Shown here piece by piece: positions 4,807 through 27,068 of a DNA stretch of 40,283 bases (position 1 is the stretch's first letter; the number at the start of each line of letters is the position of its first letter). The stretch covers positions 1-40,283 of the forward strand of contig QUKC01000023.1 in NCBI GenBank assembly GCA_003481005.1, in the 5' to 3' direction. Made by a program: the position numbers and the translations under genes. The stretch comes from Firmicutes bacterium TM09-10 (GTDB taxonomy: Bacteria; Bacillota; Clostridia; Lachnospirales; Lachnospiraceae). A model generated the notes under the pieces. The model made no database searches, was not told the DNA's origin, and was given only the letters and a program-made list of their open reading frames with translations.

Positions 4807-4879
4807 AGCTGCTGACGGGAATCGGACCCGTGACCTCCGCACTACCAATGCGACGCTCTACCGACTGAGCCACAGCAGC
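4807..4879 (-). tRNA. tRNA-Thr (anticodon GGT), copy 1
   Basis: A full cloverleaf can be drawn on the minus strand: acceptor GCTGCTG/CAGCAGC, D stem GCTC/GAGC, anticodon stem TCGCA/TGCGG with loop TTGGTAG giving anticodon GGT, and T stem ACGGG/CCCGT with loop TCCGATT. The discriminator is T. The CCA end is not encoded. It is identical to the copy at 4978. Confidence 0.95.
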
Positions 4880-4977
4880 ATATGAAATTGTAGCAGTCAC
4901 TGTTAGATATCTTATCAGACAAAAACGAATCTGTCAATAAGAAACTGCTTTATTCTGTTCTTTAAAAGAAACAGAAG

Positions 4978-5050
4978 AGCTGCTGACGGGAATCGGACCC
5001 GTGACCTCCGCACTACCAATGCGACGCTCTACCGACTGAGCCACAGCAGC
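4978..5050 (-). tRNA. tRNA-Thr (anticodon GGT), copy 2
   Basis: This is identical over all 73 bases to the tRNA at 4807-4879 and is the promoter-proximal gene of the pair; 98 bases separate them. CCA is not encoded. Both decode ACC (and ACU by wobble). Confidence 0.95.
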
Positions 5051-6909: not shown

Positions 6910-8658
6910 TCAATCCCTGTAAAGAACCGGGCTGACGCAGAGCAGTCCTTCGATTGCAGGAAGCGCGTCGATTTCTTTCAGCTGCCCGGCAGCAGAGCTG
7001 GCATCCGAAGTATTGCTGCAGGATGTCGAAGCTGCGGCAGCGTTGACGCAGGAATCCGAGGCAACTTCGTACAGAAGCGGAATGATCGGATCGGTTCCGG
7101 AGAGCTGGTTGAGGGAAACGCGTACCGGTTTGTCGAGGGAAACGCTCGTTGTGAATGTTTTGTCTTTTCCTTTTAAAACGACCTGAGCTGTTTTTGGAAC
7201 AGCAAATCCGGTCTTGTGGGCATCTGTAAACGTCAGAAGCAATTCGTTTGTTTCCGGGAGAACCTCCGTCAGCAGCAGAGCGCCTTTGGAAACCCAGGTG
7301 CGGTGCGTGTGAATGGCGGTATCGAGCTCGGAAGCGATGTTGTCGCCGCTTTTGCCTTCGATGTAGGTTGCATAGCAGCCTGCCAGCTTCGCACGGTTGT
7401 GTAAGTCCATGCCGCTGGTCGCGGTGATTTGATAGCCTGAAAAAATCAGGGACATCCAGAGATTCGTGCCGCGTTCGTTTACTTCGTGGAGCGATTCCGG
7501 ATTGTTGAAAATCTCGATAAAGTCAACCTTTGAGTAGTCCGAGACGGTCATTTCAAAGCGGCAGCCGCGGGCAAAAGGATCGCCATAGGAAAACGGATGC
7601 GCGATGCCGACGAGCGCGCCTTTTTCGCGGGCAGCTTCGAACAACAGCTCGGGACGGTGCTGGTCGATCGAGTTCCAGGGAACATATTTTGCGAGGTTTA
7701 AGCAGAGGATATGCCCGAAATAAGTCGTATATTCCATGCCGCGGATCAGGCTGATCGGATAATGCTTTTCTTCCAGCAGCTGTTCGATCTTTTTCTGACC
7801 GGAGGTGGTGTTGTGGTCGGTGATGGCGAACGCATCGACATGGTCGGCTGCCAGATATTCCGTCAGCTCCTGACAGGTTAAGCTGCCGTCGGATTCGACC
7901 GTGTGGTTGTGCAGCTCAAGGCGTTTGAAGCGGGTGGATGCAGTGACGGTATTACCAGCAGAAGAACTGCCGGTGGTGCTCGAATCGCCAGCCGTGGCAG
8001 CAGAGCCAGCGCCGGAGACGCCCGAACTGCCAGCCGTGGCAACAGCGGAGGCAGGAGCACTCTCAGCTTCGCACGAGTTGTCAGCGCTCCCGGCAGCATT
8101 CGAAGCCCCCGCATTTCCCGCTGCAGTCTTTACCGTATCCATTAGATTAAAGTTCGGTGCGATTACACCCTGTCCGACCGGATGTCCGGAAACGGTCAGC
8201 GTGTACTGCGTGTTGTCCAGCAGCACGTTAAAAACAAGGACGGTCACTTTTAAAACGCCGGAAAAGGTGTCCTGTGCCAGACAGCCGTCGCTTGTGAATT
8301 CTTTTGTGTATAACATGTGGCGGTCCGTCAGCTGGCGGTGGATGCAGCCGATGAAATTGTCGTTTAATTCCGCCATTGTGTGAATTTCTGTTTTCATTTC
8401 GTGCAGAATGGTCTGCCTGAACTCCTCGGCGGGATAGGTCGGGGCGTTGTATTTTGCAGTGCAGAGCGTCTGAAGTCTGTCAATGAGCTCAGGCGTAACG
8501 TCACTTTCACTGTAGAGCCGCTTGTCAAAGCTAAAATGAATGTCCAGCTCGTCATAGACCTGATCGAGGCTGATGGTGTAGGTGATCTGTCCTACAAAGC
8601 CTGCGTCCAGCATGCCGCCGACGCGGTAAATTTGTTGATAATTCTGATCGGTTGTCAT
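6910..8658 (-). CDS. PHP-domain metal-dependent phosphoesterase with Ala/Ser/Gly-rich linker
   Basis: The protein has 582 residues. Residues 1-175 are an N-terminal region of unknown fold; 177-241 are a low-complexity linker made mostly of Ala, Ser, Gly and Thr; 245-460 are a PHP domain of the CehA/McbA type. Its metal ligands are visible: H250 and H252 (ELHNHTVESDGS), D281-H282 (ITDHN), H316 (FGHIL), H354 (IAHPFS) and D418-H420 (GMDLHN). A second Ala/Ser-rich insertion lies at about 537-557 in the C-terminal region. PHP proteins hydrolyse phosphoesters, or in CehA an aryl carbamate or ester; the substrate is unknown here. No signal peptide or TM is seen. GGAGAGG precedes the ATG. It lies 73 bases behind the glycosidase gene on the same strand and is probably co-transcribed from 9872. 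Confidence 0.85.
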   Translation of the reverse strand: MTTDQNYQQIYRVGGMLDAGFVGQITYTISLDQVYDELDIHFSFDKRLYSESDVTPELIDRLQTLCTAKYNAPTYPAEEFRQTILHEMKTEIHTMAELNDNFIGCIHRQLTDRHMLYTKEFTSDGCLAQDTFSGVLKVTVLVFNVLLDNTQYTLTVSGHPVGQGVIAPNFNLMDTVKTAAGNAGASNAAGSADNSCEAESAPASAVATAGSSGVSGAGSAATAGDSSTTGSSSAGNTVTASTRFKRLELHNHTVESDGSLTCQELTEYLAADHVDAFAITDHNTTSGQKKIEQLLEEKHYPISLIRGMEYTTYFGHILCLNLAKYVPWNSIDQHRPELLFEAAREKGALVGIAHPFSYGDPFARGCRFEMTVSDYSKVDFIEIFNNPESLHEVNERGTNLWMSLIFSGYQITATSGMDLHNRAKLAGCYATYIEGKSGDNIASELDTAIHTHRTWVSKGALLLTEVLPETNELLLTFTDAHKTGFAVPKTAQVVLKGKDKTFTTSVSLDKPVRVSLNQLSGTDPIIPLLYEVASDSCVNAAAASTSCSNTSDASSAAGQLKEIDALPAIEGLLCVSPVLYRD

Positions 8659-8731
8659 ACGTTCCTCTCCAAAAGGTATAGTTGCAGTCAGACGCTTCCA
8701 AGACAGATGCGGAAGCGTGTCAGCTCGGCGC

Positions 8732-9787
8732 TTAGCGCAGCGGAATCACCATGTTCCAGGTTCTGGAAAACTGGTAGGGTGCAGGACCTTCCCCGGTTGC
8801 CAGAAACAGATGCGTGGGATGGTTATTTTCATCAAGCAAAAAGTAAGGGCGTTCGCAGTTTGCCTGATCGGACTGTCTGCCATCGGACCAGGTAACATGG
8901 CGGGAGTAAACGACAGGATTTTCGGCGAATTCCCAGTGAATGCAGTCGGCGCTTTCAGCGTACAGGCCTGCACCCCAGATGCCGCTGATGCCGGGACCTC
9001 CGTTTTTGAAGTCGTCTTTGATCAGCAGGCGGAATTTTCCGTCCTCGTACCACAGGTACGGATCTTCCAGATGGATGTTCGGGTCCTCGAAATTAAAGAT
9101 CGGGTCGTCCAAAATCCGTTCAAAGGGACCATCCGGGCGGGGCGCTTTTGCGACACCGATTTTTAACGGACCGTCTGCGAAGGAACGCGATTTGTAAAGC
9201 ATGTAGGTCGTTCCGTCGGGCTGGATTGCGACGGCAGGATTGGTCGTTGCAGTGCAATCCCAGTGGGAGCAGTCTCTGGGAGAAATCAGCGGCTCATCGC
9301 ACCGCGTCCATGGACCAAAAACAGACGGTGCGATTGCAAGACCGATTCGTTTGCGGTTCCAGACCTCGGTAAAACGCGAGCTGTCCACCTCGTCACCGGG
9401 ACCGGGAATCGGACCGCCGAAGGTCGTTCCCATATAATAAAGGTAGTAGGTTTGATTCCATTTACGGATGTACGGATTGTGCACGTTCATGCCGTCAAAA
9501 AAAGTGCGTCCCCGGCGTCCGAGCACGACCTCCTGAAAGGTATAGGGACCTTCCGGATTTTTGCTGGAAGCCCGGACGATTTCGCAGTTAAACAGCCAGT
9601 TTGCACCAAAGCCGAGATCTTTCGGCCAACGGGACGCAAACATGTGATAGGCTCCGTCTTCCCCCTGTACGACGGAGCCGCACCAGATCCAATAGTCCGG
9701 GTCGGAATAACCGCCGCCGACCGGAGCCGGCAAAAGCGCGTTCTGATAAGGATTCTGTACCATATTCTTTTTTATAAAACCTCCCAT
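8732..9787 (-). CDS. five-bladed beta-propeller glycoside hydrolase-like protein
   Basis: The protein has 351 residues with repeated blade-like motifs: SDPDYWIWCGSVV, YHMFASRWP, NPEGPYTFQEVV, NVHNPYIRKWNQTYYLYYMG, GLAIAPSVFGPWTR, TTNPAVAIQPDGTTYMLYKS, GVAKAPRPDGPFER and EDPYLWYEDGKFRLLIKDD. This pattern (xSxxPxGPW, DPxxW, Asp-rich blades) is that of GH43/GH117-like inverting glycosidases and related glycan phosphorylases. It lacks a signal peptide, so it acts on sugar already inside the cell. The start is uncertain: ATG 9787 has no site of its own, while the GGGAGG just inside it would serve the ATG at 9763, though at a long spacing. It is the first gene of a two-gene minus-strand operon with the PHP gene, divergent from the kinase operon. 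The family is likely; the exact substrate is not assignable. Confidence 0.8.
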   Translation of the reverse strand: MGGFIKKNMVQNPYQNALLPAPVGGGYSDPDYWIWCGSVVQGEDGAYHMFASRWPKDLGFGANWLFNCEIVRASSKNPEGPYTFQEVVLGRRGRTFFDGMNVHNPYIRKWNQTYYLYYMGTTFGGPIPGPGDEVDSSRFTEVWNRKRIGLAIAPSVFGPWTRCDEPLISPRDCSHWDCTATTNPAVAIQPDGTTYMLYKSRSFADGPLKIGVAKAPRPDGPFERILDDPIFNFEDPNIHLEDPYLWYEDGKFRLLIKDDFKNGGPGISGIWGAGLYAESADCIHWEFAENPVVYSRHVTWSDGRQSDQANCERPYFLLDENNHPTHLFLATGEGPAPYQFSRTWNMVIPLR

Positions 9788-9925: not shown

Positions 9926-9958
9926 GAAAAAGAATGAAAAATAGAGATGGAGGGGACT

Positions 9959-10909
9959 ATGAAGGGGAAAAAATGGGACGTCTATGTTTACGGCGATGTA
10001 AATATAGACCTTGTTGTTCCGGACGTTTCCAGTCTGCCCAAGCCCGGGCAGGAGGATGAAGTGCCGGTTATGGATACCTATGTAGGCGGCGGCGCGGCGC
10101 TGTTTGCGCTCGGCATTGGAAAGCTCGGTCTGCATCCGGTATTTCAGGGAGAGGTCGGGGACGACTGCTACGGGGAGCTGATCCGCAGGGAATTTGCCGC
10201 AAAAAATATCGATGACAGTCTGCTTGGGACGAGCAGGACAGAAAAAACCGGTATTTCGATCAGTTTTACCAATGAAAAGGATCGGTCGTTTCTGACGTAT
10301 CGCGGCACGAACGCGGGAATTTCCATCGACAAGGTGGATATCGAGGGCGTGAAAAACGCTTCGCATATCCATATGACAGGATACGAGGGAAGCAAAAACC
10401 ACGCGGCGTATCTTTCTTTGTTAAAACGCGTCAAAGTAGAGACAGAGGCGACTGTCTCGTTCGATCTGGGCTGGGATCCAACCGGGGAATGGAATCCTCA
10501 GATCAAGGAGCTGTTTCCGTATATCGACGTGCTGTTCATGAACGAGACGGAAGCGATTCACTATGGCAGGACGAAGACCGCACAGGAAGCGGCACGGGAG
10601 TTTGCGAAGGGGTGCGACAGGGTGGTCATCAAGCTTGGCAGCAGCGGTTCCTTTGCGATTGAAAACGGAAAAGAGGTCTTTCTCCCGGCGTACCGGGTAA
10701 AGGCTGTGGATACGACTGGCGCAGGGGATTCGTTTAATGCCGGTTTCGTATATGGATTTCTGACCGGAAAAAGTCTGGAAGAATGTCTGGCATGCGGCAA
10801 TGCCTGCGGTGCGCTGAATGTAACGGCATACGGCGGCAACACCGGCTTTCCGGACGAAAAAAGACTGATCGAATTTATGGAAGAACAGAAAGGGGAAGAA
10901 AACAAATGA
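9959..10909 (+). CDS. PfkB-family carbohydrate kinase
   Basis: The protein has 316 residues, normal for the ribokinase/PfkB family. Signature 1 is seen at residues 43-57 (GGGAALFALGIGKLG) and signature 2 at 251-264 (DTTGAGDSFNAGF), with D257 as the catalytic base and the GAG anion hole before it. NETE at 195-198 is the usual Mg-binding motif. It should transfer phosphate from ATP to a sugar or sugar-like alcohol in the cytoplasm. The start is ATG 9959 because GGAGG stands 5 bases before it; the in-frame ATG at 9947 lies upstream of that site. The stop overlaps the GH4 start by four bases (ATGA), so the two are translationally coupled. The pairing suggests that kinase and phospho-glycosidase work on the same route; the substrate is unknown. 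Confidence 0.92.
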   Translation: MKGKKWDVYVYGDVNIDLVVPDVSSLPKPGQEDEVPVMDTYVGGGAALFALGIGKLGLHPVFQGEVGDDCYGELIRREFAAKNIDDSLLGTSRTEKTGISISFTNEKDRSFLTYRGTNAGISIDKVDIEGVKNASHIHMTGYEGSKNHAAYLSLLKRVKVETEATVSFDLGWDPTGEWNPQIKELFPYIDVLFMNETEAIHYGRTKTAQEAAREFAKGCDRVVIKLGSSGSFAIENGKEVFLPAYRVKAVDTTGAGDSFNAGFVYGFLTGKSLEECLACGNACGALNVTAYGGNTGFPDEKRLIEFMEEQKGEENK

Positions 10910-12270
10910 AAATTGCAGTAATCGGTGGGGCAGGCGTCAGAACCGTCATTTTTATCAACGGCCTGTTGGCAAGATACAAAGCACTTCATATCGATGAAGT
11001 GGCACTTTATGATATCAATCAGGAAAAACAGCAGATTATCACAAAGCTGTGCCGCCATGTGGTAAACAGAAATCATGAGGAGCTTGCAGTAACGGAATCT
11101 GCAGACGTCAGAGAAGTGCTGCAGGGAGCAGATTATGTGGTAACAACGCTGAGAGTCGGCGGCGACCATTCCCGTGTGATGGATGAGACAATCGCTTTAA
11201 ACGCAGGTGTAATCGGCCAGGAAACGACCGGTGTCGGCGGTTTTTCCATGGCAGTGAGGACGATTCCGGTGCTGCTTGAGTACTGTAAGTTAATCGACGA
11301 AATTGCTCCGAATGCCTGGATTTTCAACTTTACCAATCCGTCCGGTCTGGTGACACAGGCACTTAAGAGTGCAGGCTATGAAAAAGTGATCGGCATCTGC
11401 GATGCGCCAAGCAGCACGAAGTTCAGGATGGCTGCAAAGCTTGGCGTGGAGGAAAAAGATCTGTATGTGGAATTCTTCGGTTTAAATCACCTTTCCTGGA
11501 TTCGCAGCGTGAAGGTCAAAGGCGAGGAAATTCTGCCGAAACTTCTTGCTGACGATGAATTTTTAAAGAGCATTCAGGAATTTTCCATGTTCGATCCCGA
11601 TTTGCTCCGGATGATCGGGTTTTTGCCGAATGAATATCTCTACTATTACTATCATCGGGAAAAAGCGCTTGCCAATATTTTAAAGTCCGGTGCGACCAGA
11701 GGTCAGACGATCGAGCAGGTCAACAAGCAGATGATGGAAGAGTTAAAGGCGATGGATATGGATGCGGATCCGGAAGGTGCGCTGCAGATTTTCCTGTACT
11801 ACATGCAGGTTCGGGAGAATTCTTATATGAGTATTGAATCCGGTCTTGCAAAGCGCCCGCTTCTGGAAAAGGGGCAGCTGGAAGTGCCTGATGGCATGGG
11901 ATATGCAGGCGTTATGCTTGACTGCATCGAGGGACTGCAGAGTAAGGACGGACGCGATCTGGTGCTTTCCGTAGAAAATCAGGGCAGTATCCCCGGTCTT
12001 GAGGATCGTGATGTGGTGGAAGTTACCTGTCATGTGGATGAAACAGGAATTCATCCGGTGAAGGTGGAGGAAGTGCCGGAGCACTGCTATTTGCTCATGC
12101 GTATGATCAAGATGTATGAAAAGGAGACCGTGGAAGCGGTACAGGAGCAGTCCGAGGAAAAAGCGATCCAGGCGCTGATGCTGCATCCGCTGGTCAATTC
12201 CTACTCGTTGGCAAAAGAGCTGGTTGCATCTTACAGCCAGGCATACGGCGGACTGTTTCATAAAGAATAA
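10906..12270 (+). CDS. GH4-family NAD-dependent 6-phospho-glycosidase
   Basis: The protein has 454 residues, the usual GH4 length. The N-terminus MKIAVIGGAGVRT is the NAD-binding Rossmann start. NFTNPSG (141-147), C165-D166 in GICDAPSS and H195 in FGLNHLSW are the conserved metal and substrate positions. GH4 enzymes cleave phosphorylated alpha- or beta-glycosides by an oxidation-elimination route using NAD and Mn. Members with the ICDAP motif are generally annotated as 6-phospho-beta-glucosidases, but the anomer specificity cannot be read here. Such enzymes usually follow a PTS transporter; none is in this window, while a PfkB kinase is fused in translation to this gene through an ATGA overlap. 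AGGGGAAG provides the ribosome binding site. Confidence 0.9.
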   Translation: MKIAVIGGAGVRTVIFINGLLARYKALHIDEVALYDINQEKQQIITKLCRHVVNRNHEELAVTESADVREVLQGADYVVTTLRVGGDHSRVMDETIALNAGVIGQETTGVGGFSMAVRTIPVLLEYCKLIDEIAPNAWIFNFTNPSGLVTQALKSAGYEKVIGICDAPSSTKFRMAAKLGVEEKDLYVEFFGLNHLSWIRSVKVKGEEILPKLLADDEFLKSIQEFSMFDPDLLRMIGFLPNEYLYYYYHREKALANILKSGATRGQTIEQVNKQMMEELKAMDMDADPEGALQIFLYYMQVRENSYMSIESGLAKRPLLEKGQLEVPDGMGYAGVMLDCIEGLQSKDGRDLVLSVENQGSIPGLEDRDVVEVTCHVDETGIHPVKVEEVPEHCYLLMRMIKMYEKETVEAVQEQSEEKAIQALMLHPLVNSYSLAKELVASYSQAYGGLFHKE

Positions 12271-22732: not shown

Positions 22733-23560
22733 ATGGCACAGCGGTTTTACTGGAAGCAGTATGTGACGGATAAACAGGTTACTTTCTATATCGCCGATCT
22801 GGTTTTGAAACCGGGAGAGCAGATCGAGGCGCACTGTCATGATTATTATGAATTTTTTGTCGTGTTGAAAGGCACGTTTCTGGAACGATGCAACGGACAG
22901 GAACTGGTGATGCAGCCGGGGATGGGACAGCTGCTCGGACCGGACGATGTGCATAACCTGTCAAATCCCTTTGGCGAGCAGAATCTTTTGTACAATATTG
23001 CGGTGCGAAAAGATCGTTATGAACAGCTGACAGCGCCGCTGTTTGGCAACGGGAACGGGAGCAAAGATGCACCTGTTTTTGACCTGGGTTCGGAAAGCCT
23101 GGAAGGATTCCGTGAGAAAATACGTCTGCTGCATCAACTCTGGGAGTCCTCAGGGGAAAAGGAATTTCTGCTCCAGAGCATTTGCTGTGATGTCCTGGTA
23201 AACATCTTATTAAAAGGCAGGGAAAACAGTGCGCCGGACTGGCTGTCTGAATTGTATGACAGAATGCAGGAGCCTGAAAATTTTACGCAGGGACTTACAC
23301 GCATGTTGGAACTTGCGGGCAAAAGTCAGGCGTATCTGAATCGTATTTTTTATAAGTATTATGGGCAAACGCCGACGGCGTTTATCAATTCCTGCCGAAT
23401 GACTGAGGCATGCCGCCTGCTCCGCAGCACTGAAGAAAAAATTCTGGATATCGCTTACAGCTGCGGGTATGAGAATCTGTCGTATTTCAACCGACAGTTT
23501 CGGGCTCGTTACGGCCAGACGCCAAAAGAATACCGGAGTCAGAAGCGGTTCTTTGAATGA
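22733..23560 (+). CDS. AraC-family regulator with N-terminal cupin domain
   Basis: The protein has 275 residues. The N-terminal 100 residues are a cupin sensor (KPGEQIEAHCHDYYEFFVVLKGTF in short blocks, VMQPGMGQLLGPDDVHNLSN). The last 100 contain the two AraC helix-turn-helix units (LTRMLELAGKSQAYLNRIF; ILDIAYSCGYENLSYFNRQF) ending in RYGQTPKEYR. GGAG stands 5 bases before the ATG. These regulators usually sense a small organic ligand and activate a nearby operon; the glycyl radical enzyme operon starts 205 bases downstream in the same direction and is the obvious target. Confidence 0.92.
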   Translation: MAQRFYWKQYVTDKQVTFYIADLVLKPGEQIEAHCHDYYEFFVVLKGTFLERCNGQELVMQPGMGQLLGPDDVHNLSNPFGEQNLLYNIAVRKDRYEQLTAPLFGNGNGSKDAPVFDLGSESLEGFREKIRLLHQLWESSGEKEFLLQSICCDVLVNILLKGRENSAPDWLSELYDRMQEPENFTQGLTRMLELAGKSQAYLNRIFYKYYGQTPTAFINSCRMTEACRLLRSTEEKILDIAYSCGYENLSYFNRQFRARYGQTPKEYRSQKRFFE

Positions 23561-23638
23561 CAGATGACATTTTGAAGTCTCTTTTCAGAAAACAGAATAT
23601 TTTCACAGAAAAAAATAGATTAGGTCAATATAGTATCA

Positions 23639-23676
23639 GAAACGGGAAACAGGTGTTAGCGGTGTTTCCCGTTTTC
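23639..23676 (+). terminator. terminator after the AraC gene
   Basis: GAAACGGGAAACA pairs with TGTTTCCCGTTTTC around an 11-base loop. A T-rich but interrupted tail follows. Confidence 0.75.
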
Positions 23677-23708
23677 TATTATACTGAATCCAGAAGCTGT
23701 GGAATGAG

Positions 23709-23737
23709 TTGATTTAAAATCAAAACAACTGTATTTA
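23709..23737 (+). promoter_or_regulatory. candidate promoter of the glycyl radical enzyme operon
   Basis: TTGATT (23709-23714), 17 bases, TATTTA (23732-23737). The -10 is poor, which fits a promoter needing an activator. An imperfect palindrome, AGTTGATTT...ATCAAAACAACT, covers 23708-23731. A TTTTCAGAAAA at 23582-23592 resembles a CodY box core. Confidence 0.45.
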
Positions 23738-23764
23738 TGGAAAAAGAAATGTGGAGGGACAAAA

Positions 23765-26041
23765 ATGTATCATCCGAACAGAATTTTAGAGCGGGAACTG
23801 GAATTTACAAAAATCTATCGGGAAAATATCGGGCAGCCTAAAGCGGTGCGGGAGAGTCGCTGCATGGATGCACAGATGGCGACGTACTTTGTGACGATTC
23901 AGCCGCAGGATCTGATTGCCGGAAGGATCAGCCGTCCGTATGTGGTGTTTGCACAGTGTATGGAGGGCGACGGCATCGACAAGACCGGTTATTGTATCGA
24001 TGTGGTAAACTGCGAGAAGGAGCTGGAACGGATGAAGGCAGACGCCGCCTATTCCAGGGAGGACTGTATGCAGGTAGAAGAGATGATCCAATTCTGGAAA
24101 GCAGAAAATACAAATACAAAAATCCGGCAGCAGTTCCCCAAAAGCTGGGCAGGTTCGATGGGCGGTGACGATTATGTGCATGATAATGCGGCAATTCATC
24201 CGCTTTACCGGCTGGCAGGTGTAAATCTTGATTTTAAAAAGCTCTTCCGGCTTGGTATATGCGGTTTGCGGGATGAAGCGCTCAGACTGGCACAGGAGAC
24301 GCAGGATTCGGAGAAAAAGAATTTTTACGAGGGCGTAGCTTCTGTGCAGGAATCCCTTCGTCGGGTAATGGGGCAGTATACAACGGAGGCAAAGCGTTTG
24401 GCTGGACAGGAAAATGACAGGGTGCGGCAACAGGAACTTTTGCAGATGGCAGAGTGTCTGGAACACATTCAGACTGCACCACCGGAGAGTATGCAGGAGG
24501 CAATTCAGCTTCAATGCCTCTATATGCTTGCGGCGCGGGCAGTAGAGATCGGAAGAATCGACGATTATCTGGGGGAATTTTATCGGAAAGATTTGAAGAC
24601 CGGACGGATTACACACGACCAGGCAGTGCGTTTACTGGACAATTTTTTCACAATCATCGAAACCCAGTGCGGACGGGATACGCGGGTCATTATCGGCGGC
24701 ATGGGGCGCGAGCATGAAAAGAGCGCGGACGAATTTGCTATGCTGGTGATGGATGTATTGGAAGTGCGCAGGGAACATTTTTATCCGCAGATCAGCCTGC
24801 GTTATTATAAAGAGATGAATCAGGATATTTATGACCGCGCGCTGCGGATTCTTGGCAGCGGCATGACCTTTCCGATGCTGTATAACGATGATGTGAATGT
24901 GCCTGCAGTGATGCGGGCGATGGATGTGCCCAAAAAGGCAGCGGAGCAGTATTCGTTCTTTGGCTGCGGAGAATATATGCTGGCGGCACAGAGTATCGGA
25001 ACGCCAAACACAGCCCTGAATGTGGCAAAGGTTCTGGAACTTGTGCTGCATGATGGAATCAATCCGGCGACAGGAATTTTGTCAGGACCGCTGGCAGCTG
25101 GGCAGGAATGCAAAAAGCTTCAGGACATTATCTGCTATGAGGAGCTGGAAGAGTTGTTAAAAACTTATCTGACGTTTTTTATCGAGATTGCAGGCGGTTT
25201 TGAAGAGCTGGTGTATGACGTGGATGGAAAAGAAGCAGAGTTTTTACAGCTCTCCTGTCTGCAGGACGACTGCATGACGCGTGGACGCGGTATGCTAAAC
25301 GGCGGTTACAGGTATCTGGGCGGAACGGTGGAAACCTATGGAAATATCACGCTTTCAGACAGTATGGAAGCAATCCGGAAAGTTGTATTTGAGGAAAAGC
25401 GCTGCACATTACAGGAGCTTGTAGAGGCGCTCGACTGTGATTTTTCGGGAAAAGAGATGCTGCAGCAGGCGCTTCTTGACGCGCCGAAATTTGGGAACGA
25501 TAATGAAGAGGCGGATGAAATTGCGGTTCGGCTGCATGAGTTCATCTGTCAGACGATCCGCAACCAGAAAAACCGGACACGGCTAGATTCTTTCCTGGCG
25601 GTGTTGATCAACAACAATATGAATGTGACGCTGGGGCAGTTTACCGGCGCGACGCCGGACGGCAGAAATGCGCATAAGTTTTTGTCCAACGGCAACAGCC
25701 CTTACAACGGACAGGATAAAGAGGGACTGACAGCGCTGATTCTGTCGTTGACTAAACTGGATAATTCAATTCATGCGGGCGGAAACCAGAACCTGAAATT
25801 CGCGCGCAGCATGTTTGAAGGCGATCTGACGCAGATTAAGAGCGTGCTTGGAACGTTCTTCGATCTTGGAGGGCAGCAGGTGAATTTGAGCGTTGTCTGC
25901 CAGAAAGATCTGGAGGATGCGCTGGTGCACCCGGAAAGCCATGAAAATCTGGTGGTGCGGGTCGGCGGATTTACAGCGAGGTTTATCGATCTGGATAAAA
26001 AAACGCAGCAGGACGTCCTGACGAGGACGGCATACTGCTAA
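23765..26041 (+). CDS. glycyl radical enzyme of the PFL-like superfamily, function unknown
   Basis: The protein has 758 residues, usual for this family. The C-terminal glycyl radical loop is VVRVGGFTARFIDL, with G735 as the radical site, and the catalytic loop is SFFGCGEYMLAA with C401 and E403. A Gly-Cys-x-Glu arrangement, with no second Cys, belongs to the eliminase and lyase members (diol dehydratases, choline lyase CutC, hydroxyproline dehydratase HypD, isethionate lyase) and not to pyruvate formate-lyase. But those enzymes have GCVE followed by P or a similar residue; GCGEY is not a motif I can assign. The enzyme is anaerobic and oxygen-sensitive. GGAGGG stands before the ATG. Its activase follows. 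No microcompartment shell or aldehyde dehydrogenase genes are near, so a volatile aldehyde product is less likely. Confidence 0.93.
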   Translation: MYHPNRILERELEFTKIYRENIGQPKAVRESRCMDAQMATYFVTIQPQDLIAGRISRPYVVFAQCMEGDGIDKTGYCIDVVNCEKELERMKADAAYSREDCMQVEEMIQFWKAENTNTKIRQQFPKSWAGSMGGDDYVHDNAAIHPLYRLAGVNLDFKKLFRLGICGLRDEALRLAQETQDSEKKNFYEGVASVQESLRRVMGQYTTEAKRLAGQENDRVRQQELLQMAECLEHIQTAPPESMQEAIQLQCLYMLAARAVEIGRIDDYLGEFYRKDLKTGRITHDQAVRLLDNFFTIIETQCGRDTRVIIGGMGREHEKSADEFAMLVMDVLEVRREHFYPQISLRYYKEMNQDIYDRALRILGSGMTFPMLYNDDVNVPAVMRAMDVPKKAAEQYSFFGCGEYMLAAQSIGTPNTALNVAKVLELVLHDGINPATGILSGPLAAGQECKKLQDIICYEELEELLKTYLTFFIEIAGGFEELVYDVDGKEAEFLQLSCLQDDCMTRGRGMLNGGYRYLGGTVETYGNITLSDSMEAIRKVVFEEKRCTLQELVEALDCDFSGKEMLQQALLDAPKFGNDNEEADEIAVRLHEFICQTIRNQKNRTRLDSFLAVLINNNMNVTLGQFTGATPDGRNAHKFLSNGNSPYNGQDKEGLTALILSLTKLDNSIHAGGNQNLKFARSMFEGDLTQIKSVLGTFFDLGGQQVNLSVVCQKDLEDALVHPESHENLVVRVGGFTARFIDLDKKTQQDVLTRTAYC

Positions 26042-26144
26042 GAGAAAAAGCGAGTGGCATCGTTACTGCCGTGCAGTGTCGGAAAAACAAAATATGTCCA
26101 GTATCGCTGCGCAGTGCTGTGATGCCGGAAAGGGAGGATATAGT

Positions 26145-27068
26145 TTGGAAGCGTTGCTTGTAGATATTCAGAGGGGAAGCCTGCATGACGGACCAGGTGT
26201 GCGGACGACATTCTTTTTTAAGGGCTGCCCGCTGCGCTGTCGGTGGTGCCATAATCCGGAGAGTCAAAATCCCGGAAAGCAGCTGTCGTTTCATCGTGAG
26301 AAGTGCGTTGGATGCGGGCGCTGTGAAACGGCATGTCACAGTAATGTACATTGGTTGACGAAAACCGGGACAGAACAGTTTCGGCATCAGGTTTATTTTG
26401 AACATTGTCAGTTTTGCGGGAAGTGTGTGGAACAGTGTCCGGTAAAGGCACTGAAAATTATCGGAACACCGTATACAGAAGAAGAGCTTTTGAAAATTGC
26501 ACTGTTGGATCGGGCGTTTTATGAGCATTCCGGCGGCGGAATTACGTTGTCGGGCGGAGAAGTGCTGCAGCAGGCGGATTTTGCAGCCTCCTTTCTTTCG
26601 TTGTGCAGAGAGGAGGATCTGCATACCTGTGTGGAGACGAGCGGGTTTGGAACTACAGACGCGATGGAAAAGCTGCTGCAGGAAACCGATCTGCTATATT
26701 TTGACTGGAAAGTGAGCACTGAGGAGGACGCAAAAAAATGGATTGGCGGATCGCTTGTCCCGATTTTGAATAATCTTGCTCTGGCGGATAAAAAAGGGAT
26801 ACGGACAGTTTTACGCTGTCCGATTATCCCTGGAGTCAACGATAATACAGTCCATTTTCAGACAATCTGTGATCTGCTTGGGCGATACCCTTCGATAGAG
26901 CAGGCGCAGCTTTTGCCGTATCATTCGTTCGGTATTTCCAAAGGAGGAAATATCGGGCAGCTTCAGCAGGAATTTCCGGTTCCGGGGGAAGAAGAAAAGA
27001 AAAATTGGATTTCCTGGTTTGAACAAAATGGAAAAGAAGAAGGGAAACGGGTGGTTTTGGAACACTAG
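26145..27068 (+). CDS. glycyl radical enzyme activating enzyme (radical SAM)
   Basis: The protein has 307 residues from TTG 26145, which has AGGGAGG 7 bases before it; an in-frame GTG at 26076 has no such site. The radical-SAM cluster motif is C28-x3-C32-x2-C35 (GCPLRCRWCHNPE). Two ferredoxin-type clusters follow as an insert: C54, C57, C60, C64 and C88, C91, C94, C98. This two-cluster insert is typical of activases for the eliminase-type GREs, not for PFL. ITLSGGEVLQQ binds SAM. It abstracts a hydrogen from the glycine of the partner enzyme at 23765, using SAM and an electron donor. The stop is followed by the lepA promoter region. Confidence 0.95.
   Translation: MEALLVDIQRGSLHDGPGVRTTFFFKGCPLRCRWCHNPESQNPGKQLSFHREKCVGCGRCETACHSNVHWLTKTGTEQFRHQVYFEHCQFCGKCVEQCPVKALKIIGTPYTEEELLKIALLDRAFYEHSGGGITLSGGEVLQQADFAASFLSLCREEDLHTCVETSGFGTTDAMEKLLQETDLLYFDWKVSTEEDAKKWIGGSLVPILNNLALADKKGIRTVLRCPIIPGVNDNTVHFQTICDLLGRYPSIEQAQLLPYHSFGISKGGNIGQLQQEFPVPGEEEKKNWISWFEQNGKEEGKRVVLEH

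Follow-up and report, generated by a model that had tools for sequence, protein, structure and literature searches.

A stretch of 40,283 nt from Firmicutes bacterium TM09-10 (contig QUKC01000023.1, positions 1 to 40,283; hereafter the window) carries on its + strand, at positions 22733–27068, a three-gene unit for an AraC regulator with a cupin domain, a glycyl radical enzyme (GRE) of 758 residues and a two-ferredoxin activase, as delimited by open reading frames (ORFs) and Pfam matches. Judged by its sequence, the GRE belongs to a large branch of the superfamily without an assigned reaction, and the clade around it is an active-looking GRE family with eliminase layout that appears tied to glycoside use, mannosides being the strongest association. 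The glycoside or mannoside claim is weaker for the window enzyme itself than for the clade, and the explanation which we tentatively prefer, at slightly less than an even chance, is that the window enzyme would be a radical C-O eliminase acting on a compound of the sugar or polyol type that arises in the catabolism of glycosides, perhaps mannosides.

The regulator (22733–23560, +, 275 aa) has an N-terminal cupin (Cupin_2/AraC_binding) and a C-terminal HTH_18 domain in Pfam, and is followed by a gap of 204 bp (23561–23764) and the GRE gene (23765–26041, +, 758 aa; PFL-like 395 bits, Gly_radical 70 bits), which starts behind a good ribosome-binding site (GGAGG, 23753–23757). Translation confirmed C401, G402, E403 and Y404 as well as the loop RVGGFTARF as given in an earlier note on this DNA, with the GCGEY motif (residues 400–404, 24962–24976) holding a putative thiyl Cys401 and, by homology, the base Glu403, and with the radical loop (residues 732–740, 25958–25984) placing the radical glycine, from its position in the motif, at G735; the codon for Arg149, located by alignment, is at 24209–24211. 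The activase gene (26076–27068, +, 330 aa, GTG start) begins 34 bases after the GRE gene and encodes a Radical_SAM domain and two Fer4 stretches, with the motifs CX3CX2C (C51, C55, C58) and two CX2CX2CX3C visible in the translation; the earlier view of an eliminase-type GRE with its own two-ferredoxin activase, in a compact unit with a cupin AraC regulator upstream, thus agrees with the ORFs, the Pfam matches and the cysteine motifs. Since the NCBIfam models align to the activase from residue 25–33 on (the best five from 26–29), its GTG start may be too far upstream. The gap between regulator and GRE contains a 12-bp perfect inverted repeat (23640–23651/23663–23674), which is undecided between operator and terminator; a conserved operator was rejected, as the repeat lacks a counterpart upstream of the GRE gene in the six close loci L001–L006. 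No riboswitch was detected in Rfam at the gathering level, where two tRNAs were the sole matches.

The features of the GRE superfamily were all found (PFL-like and Gly_radical domains, RVxG[FWY], a mid-protein Cys, a nearby radical SAM activase and the GRE fold), as was the Gly-Cys-x-Glu catalytic loop of the GRE eliminases. The predicted model (pLDDT 96.1) is that of a GRE eliminase fold, and aligned over its whole length with glycerol dehydratase 1r8w at a TM score of 0.86. The B12-independent glycerol and 1,2-propanediol dehydratases (1r8w, 5i2a, 9rco; TM 0.85–0.87 over the whole length) share with the window enzyme the GC-x-E layout, the RVxG radical loop and the type of activase, but differ in overall sequence (24–27% identity), in the motif (GCVEP versus GCGEY) and in the pocket. 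In the alignment, the column of glycerol dehydratase His164 is occupied by Gly152, that of Asp447 by Pro414 (or Asn415), and Arg149 stands where glycerol dehydratase has Gly and HypD has Arg, so that the dehydratase signature of GCVE, His164 and Asp447 is absent. These other pocket changes are at least as telling as the Val-to-Gly replacement in GCGE.

Pfam and NCBIfam both place the enzyme in the PFL2/glycerol-dehydratase group, with 349.2 bits for the subfamily model PFL2-3, which has its cut-off at 678.2, and with every equivalog below its cut-off: HypD (NF043068, 265.5 versus 1100 bits), CutC (TIGR04394, 280.7 versus 1050), the sulfopropanediol dehydratases HpsG and HpfG (NF048011 and NF048009, 281.7 and 261.1 versus 1000), the PflD type (PRK09983, 245.8 versus 1109), 4-hydroxyphenylacetate decarboxylase (NF033715, 208.6 versus 1150) and indoleacetate decarboxylase (NF033718, 201 versus 1100). 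Isethionate lyase, the N-methyl-hydroxyproline dehydratases, HplG and the arylsuccinate synthases appeared as distant matches among solved structures, with no model among the NCBIfam GRE matches. Decarboxylation or the cleavage of a C-C or C-N bond on the same scaffold, instead of elimination, is quite improbable, as the decarboxylase, CutC and PFL models all score far under their cut-offs, the Glu near the catalytic Cys is kept in all 116 aligned clade members (below), and a second subunit or amine gene was not seen alongside.

A protein search in which 7999 candidates were scored returned 239 matches, the best 120 of which were used for motif counts and alignment. The Gly-Cys-x-Glu pattern was present in 118 of these 120, with x always Gly, and the alignment of 116 full-length sequences, including the window enzyme (five shorter than 640 residues were left out), was invariant at Cys401, Gly402, Glu403, Arg149, Arg264, Asp266, Arg346 and Gly735, while position 404 was variable (Y 102, F 10, L 3, Q 1). 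The retained radical glycine sets the clade apart from the aminoacyl radical enzymes (AAREs), in which it is replaced by Ala, Ser or Thr and which, according to PMC11528403, are relatives of the GRE eliminases that lack an assignment and are common in gut metagenomes. The motif had been described earlier as non-standard and unlike characterised GREs, and Gly402 does differ from the GCVE or GCIE found in the nine distinct PDB sequences whose catalytic loop was inspected and in E. coli PflD; the idea of a single odd enzyme did not hold, given that CGE is constant in a widespread clade and that Tyr404 varies. Nothing linking a glycyl radical enzyme with GCGEY was found in the literature searched, and a description outside it may exist.

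A scan of genomes gave 278 relatives among 324 pattern matches, from which 80 loci were kept; as the scan patterns contain FFGCGE and RVGG, the motif gains no independent support from these loci. A tree was built from the 116 aligned sequences, 74 of the 80 locus copies (those whose ORF exceeds 650 residues and carries both GCGE and RVGG) and seven reference GREs, although some locus copies may duplicate database proteins, so that an identical gene is counted twice. The 190 clade members were split from the seven characterised or solved GREs (24.8–27.5% identity to the window enzyme) with support 1.0 and a branch length of 1.34, and the clustering with a characterised GCGEY group that could have supplied a known substrate was not found. 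The window enzyme falls in a close clade of 73 sequences (47–99% identity, support 1.0), which includes metagenome copies 94–99% identical to it (P0001 and P0002, with 601 and 1402 member sequences); the close proteins from metagenomes number roughly 65 (P0001–P0071). Niameybacter massiliensis is a cultured carrier, as is Ruminiclostridium termitidis for the wider family. By record titles, the clade as a whole extends over Clostridia, Ignavibacteria, Spirochaetes, Bacteroidetes, Acidobacteria, Planctomycetes and others. Among the genomes of the L001 family, 12/397 matched the GRE at E ≤ 1e-100, with a close copy only in the genome of L001 itself, and searches at E ≤ 1e-190 gave 2/398, 2/348 (the same two genomes) and 1/345, all previously found, so that the genomic context of the close clade rests on the six loci L001–L006. 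The LepA protein of the window shares 90% identity with its counterparts in the genomes of L074 (Eisenbergiella tayi) and L031 (Lachnospiraceae CE91-St56); relatives of Eisenbergiella tayi contained distant copies of the GRE only (4/61 genomes at E ≤ 1e-100, about 36–40% identity). Two distant copies of the clade each were seen in genomes G404, in which L031 lies, and G433, and L067 (1161–3728) encodes a further GRE-like protein, which has the motif GCQEP, shows RIHGTF rather than RVxG[FWY] at the expected radical loop and is preceded by an activase-like ORF.

Genes around the loci were called with a simple ORF script prone to antisense errors and then clustered, and counts were made over 81 loci (the 80 and the window), some of which are too short to decide; apparent tandem GRE paralogues in rumen loci were rejected as antisense artefacts of the ORF caller. 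The activase adjoins the GRE in 62/81 loci. The nearest relative with DNA, L001, has a GRE 68% and an activase 58% identical to those of the window, which argues against a chance occurrence of the three-gene unit. An AraC gene is located directly upstream of the GRE gene in 42/81 loci, co-oriented with it in the close clade (six same-strand cases: the window, L001, L002, L004, L005 and L006) and divergent in 36 other loci (L007–L080). No AraC gene was present upstream of L003, which has there an ORF that we take to be mnmA-like from its sequence. The AraC proteins of the six same-strand cases group together (support 0.99), with H34, H36, E40 and H74 invariant among them, and over 40 of the 42 pairs the distance matrices of AraC and GRE correlated with r 0.93, compared with a highest value of 0.198 in 2000 permutations, a correlation that may partly reflect shared species history. 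A cluster of aldo/keto reductases, which fit a carbonyl product, occurs in 11/80 loci; at L004, the gene directly upstream of the close-clade AraC gene (7681–8841) encodes an aldo/keto reductase that carries a ferredoxin-like domain at its C-terminus.

The survey of relatives' neighbourhoods that the earlier note had proposed revealed alpha-mannosidase families far above expectation. The enrichment sample comprised 46 of the 80 loci, hand-picked mostly for long flanks after the neighbourhoods had been seen, with expectations derived from gene totals in the same genome, rounded genome sizes and 200000 simulations. GH38 accounted for 16 genes in 13/46 loci against 1.02 loci expected, and GH92 for 8 genes in 7/46 loci against 0.18 expected, numbers reached in neither case by any of the 200000 simulations. 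A member of the GH38 or GH92 clusters was present in 26/80 loci, six of them within the 34 loci outside the enrichment sample; the label of alpha-mannosidase comes from Pfam for five representatives (L047, L049, L001, L074 and L022) and from homology for the rest. On the GRE tree, mannosidase presence (19/45 tips) required 13 Fitch changes compared with a shuffled mean of 14.9, and this scattered presence indicates that the link is not one inherited block and is shown by several lineages, among them L001, Robinsoniella (L049), Eisenbergiella (L074, L079), L052 and L054, L072, rumen Clostridia, and Ignavibacteria and kin. Tight same-strand runs were observed in L049 (GH2-GH38-GRE-activase-ROK kinase) and L074 (GH38-ROK-GH38-GH2-GRE-activase), and in L001 GH116 and GH38 genes end 157 bases before AraC-GRE-activase. 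No link between glycyl radical enzymes and mannosidases was found in the titles or abstract openings searched, and a description may exist outside this literature.

Several points weigh against extending glycoside, and especially mannoside, use to the window enzyme. Among six close relatives, a mannosidase gene lies within 10 kb only in L001, and the unit in the window adjoins no mannosidase, reductase or transporter. The wider family is only 36–42% identical to the window enzyme, a range in which GRE function usually differs under the rule of thumb, given in PMC11528403, by which 40–50% identity already lies under the threshold that sets apart most GREs of distinct function; the substrate claim is weaker for this reason, and the context of the relatives may not transfer. 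The mannose link is also not exclusive, with GH2 mildly enriched (5/46 loci versus 1.72 expected; 2.65% of simulations reach 5) and GH4, GH106, GH94 and GH42 also found near the GRE, and the 46 loci were our own choice after inspection. Finally, with Gly in the position of His164, the usual acid would be missing or replaced.

The sugar context and the mannose bias of the relatives would also suit the ring opening of an anhydro-sugar (phosphate) instead of diol dehydration, and the structures of YbiW and PflD, which share the fold and are titled with 1,5-anhydroglucitol-6-phosphate and 1,5-anhydromannitol-6-phosphate, provide a precedent for GREs that accept sugar-like rings. We nevertheless consider this unlikely, as the window enzyme is 26% identical to either E. 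coli enzyme, misses the cut-off of the PflD-type equivalog by a wide margin, differs from them in the residues of the aligned columns and in the motif (GCIET and GCVEL), and is encoded in a unit without a sugar-phosphate import gene. Arg149 could alternatively bind a carboxylate, in which case the enzyme would be a dehydratase or lyase whose substrate is an amino acid or a small hydroxy acid, either HypD-like or acting on glycerate from mannosylglycerate. HypD has Arg in the same column and likewise no His at column 152, the best equivalog of the window activase is the HypD activase (282.5 versus 425 bits, below cut-off), and the sole NCBIfam match of the L001 GH38 protein is mannosylglycerate hydrolase. 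That match is below family level (482.1 versus a cut-off of 1138), the enzyme is 24.8% identical to HypD, which has a GCVET motif, and reaches less than a quarter of the HypD model's cut-off, and proline, glycerate kinase or amino-acid genes were not noticed among the window genes scanned; this alternative is therefore also rather unlikely.

Under the preferred reading of a C-O eliminase, regulator, GRE and activase would form a single catabolic unit, in which the activase generates the radical on G735 and the radical moves to Cys401, which would abstract a hydrogen from a hydroxyl-bearing carbon. Glu403 would accept the hydroxyl proton, the adjacent C-O bond would be cleaved, and an aldehyde or ketone released. 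As substrate we would expect a compound of the sugar or polyol type, released in the breakdown of a glycoside, perhaps a mannoside, and held partly by clade residues such as Arg149, and the AraC cupin might sense this substrate or its precursor. A wider proposal, which we regard as doubtful, is that the GCGEY clade represents a GRE family of new function, which cleaves a bond in a compound derived from or linked to mannose and transfers protons through residues other than the His/Glu pair of the diol dehydratases, in an as yet unrecognised radical step of mannoside breakdown common to anaerobes of several phyla. An undescribed reaction is possible from these sequences, with caution because the fold, Cys, Glu and radical Gly match those of ordinary C-O eliminases and because the glycosidase lead was obtained in relatives rather than in the window.

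Each GRE group with an assigned reaction has so far revealed an anaerobic route without a counterpart in other chemistry, as for choline to trimethylamine, hydroxyproline and isethionate (reviewed in PMC11574389). The clade described here, from gut, rumen and environmental anaerobes, combines a constant signature with a rebuilt pocket and a testable substrate class; the mannosidase neighbourhoods are a first lead on the compound degraded by the window enzyme, and the mannoside link, if true, would bring radical chemistry into glycan degradation.

The unit is flanked by a CBS-domain gene and by a gene that we take to be lepA from its sequence and position, and the surrounding genes have housekeeping or unrelated functions (DJ-1, CBS, LepA, HemW, Dus, a sigma factor, ChlI, DprA, topoisomerase, CodY, S2 and EF-Ts). 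In line with the earlier note, the 28 different window proteins scanned, a subset of the window ORFs, included neither a shell protein nor an aldehyde dehydrogenase nor the product of an amine gene. The compact unit, its sparse occurrence and its changing surroundings suggest an autonomous catabolic cassette subject to gain and loss. Patchy occurrence and isolation among housekeeping genes could also be expected of a silent or decayed unit lacking a present function, but this is very improbable in view of three intact reading frames, near-identical metagenome copies and invariant catalytic residues.

Farther upstream, the window encodes a glycogen phosphorylase and a LacI regulator as well as a pair of GH4 and PfkB proteins. 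This pair (9947–12270) consists of a PfkB-type sugar kinase adjoining a GH4 glycosidase, about 11 kb from the GRE, and the PfkB and GH4 gene clusters of the window are also represented near the GRE in L010, L023 and L053. On the − strand, a protein encoded at 8732–9787 is weakly similar to beta-1,2-mannobiose phosphorylase (E 3.3e-4) and, below cut-off, to GH43 (E 4.9e-5), and lies next to a CehA/McbA-type PHP metallohydrolase (6910–8658, −). The two tRNAs are both tRNA-Thr with anticodon GGT, located about 100 bases apart (4807–5050, −).
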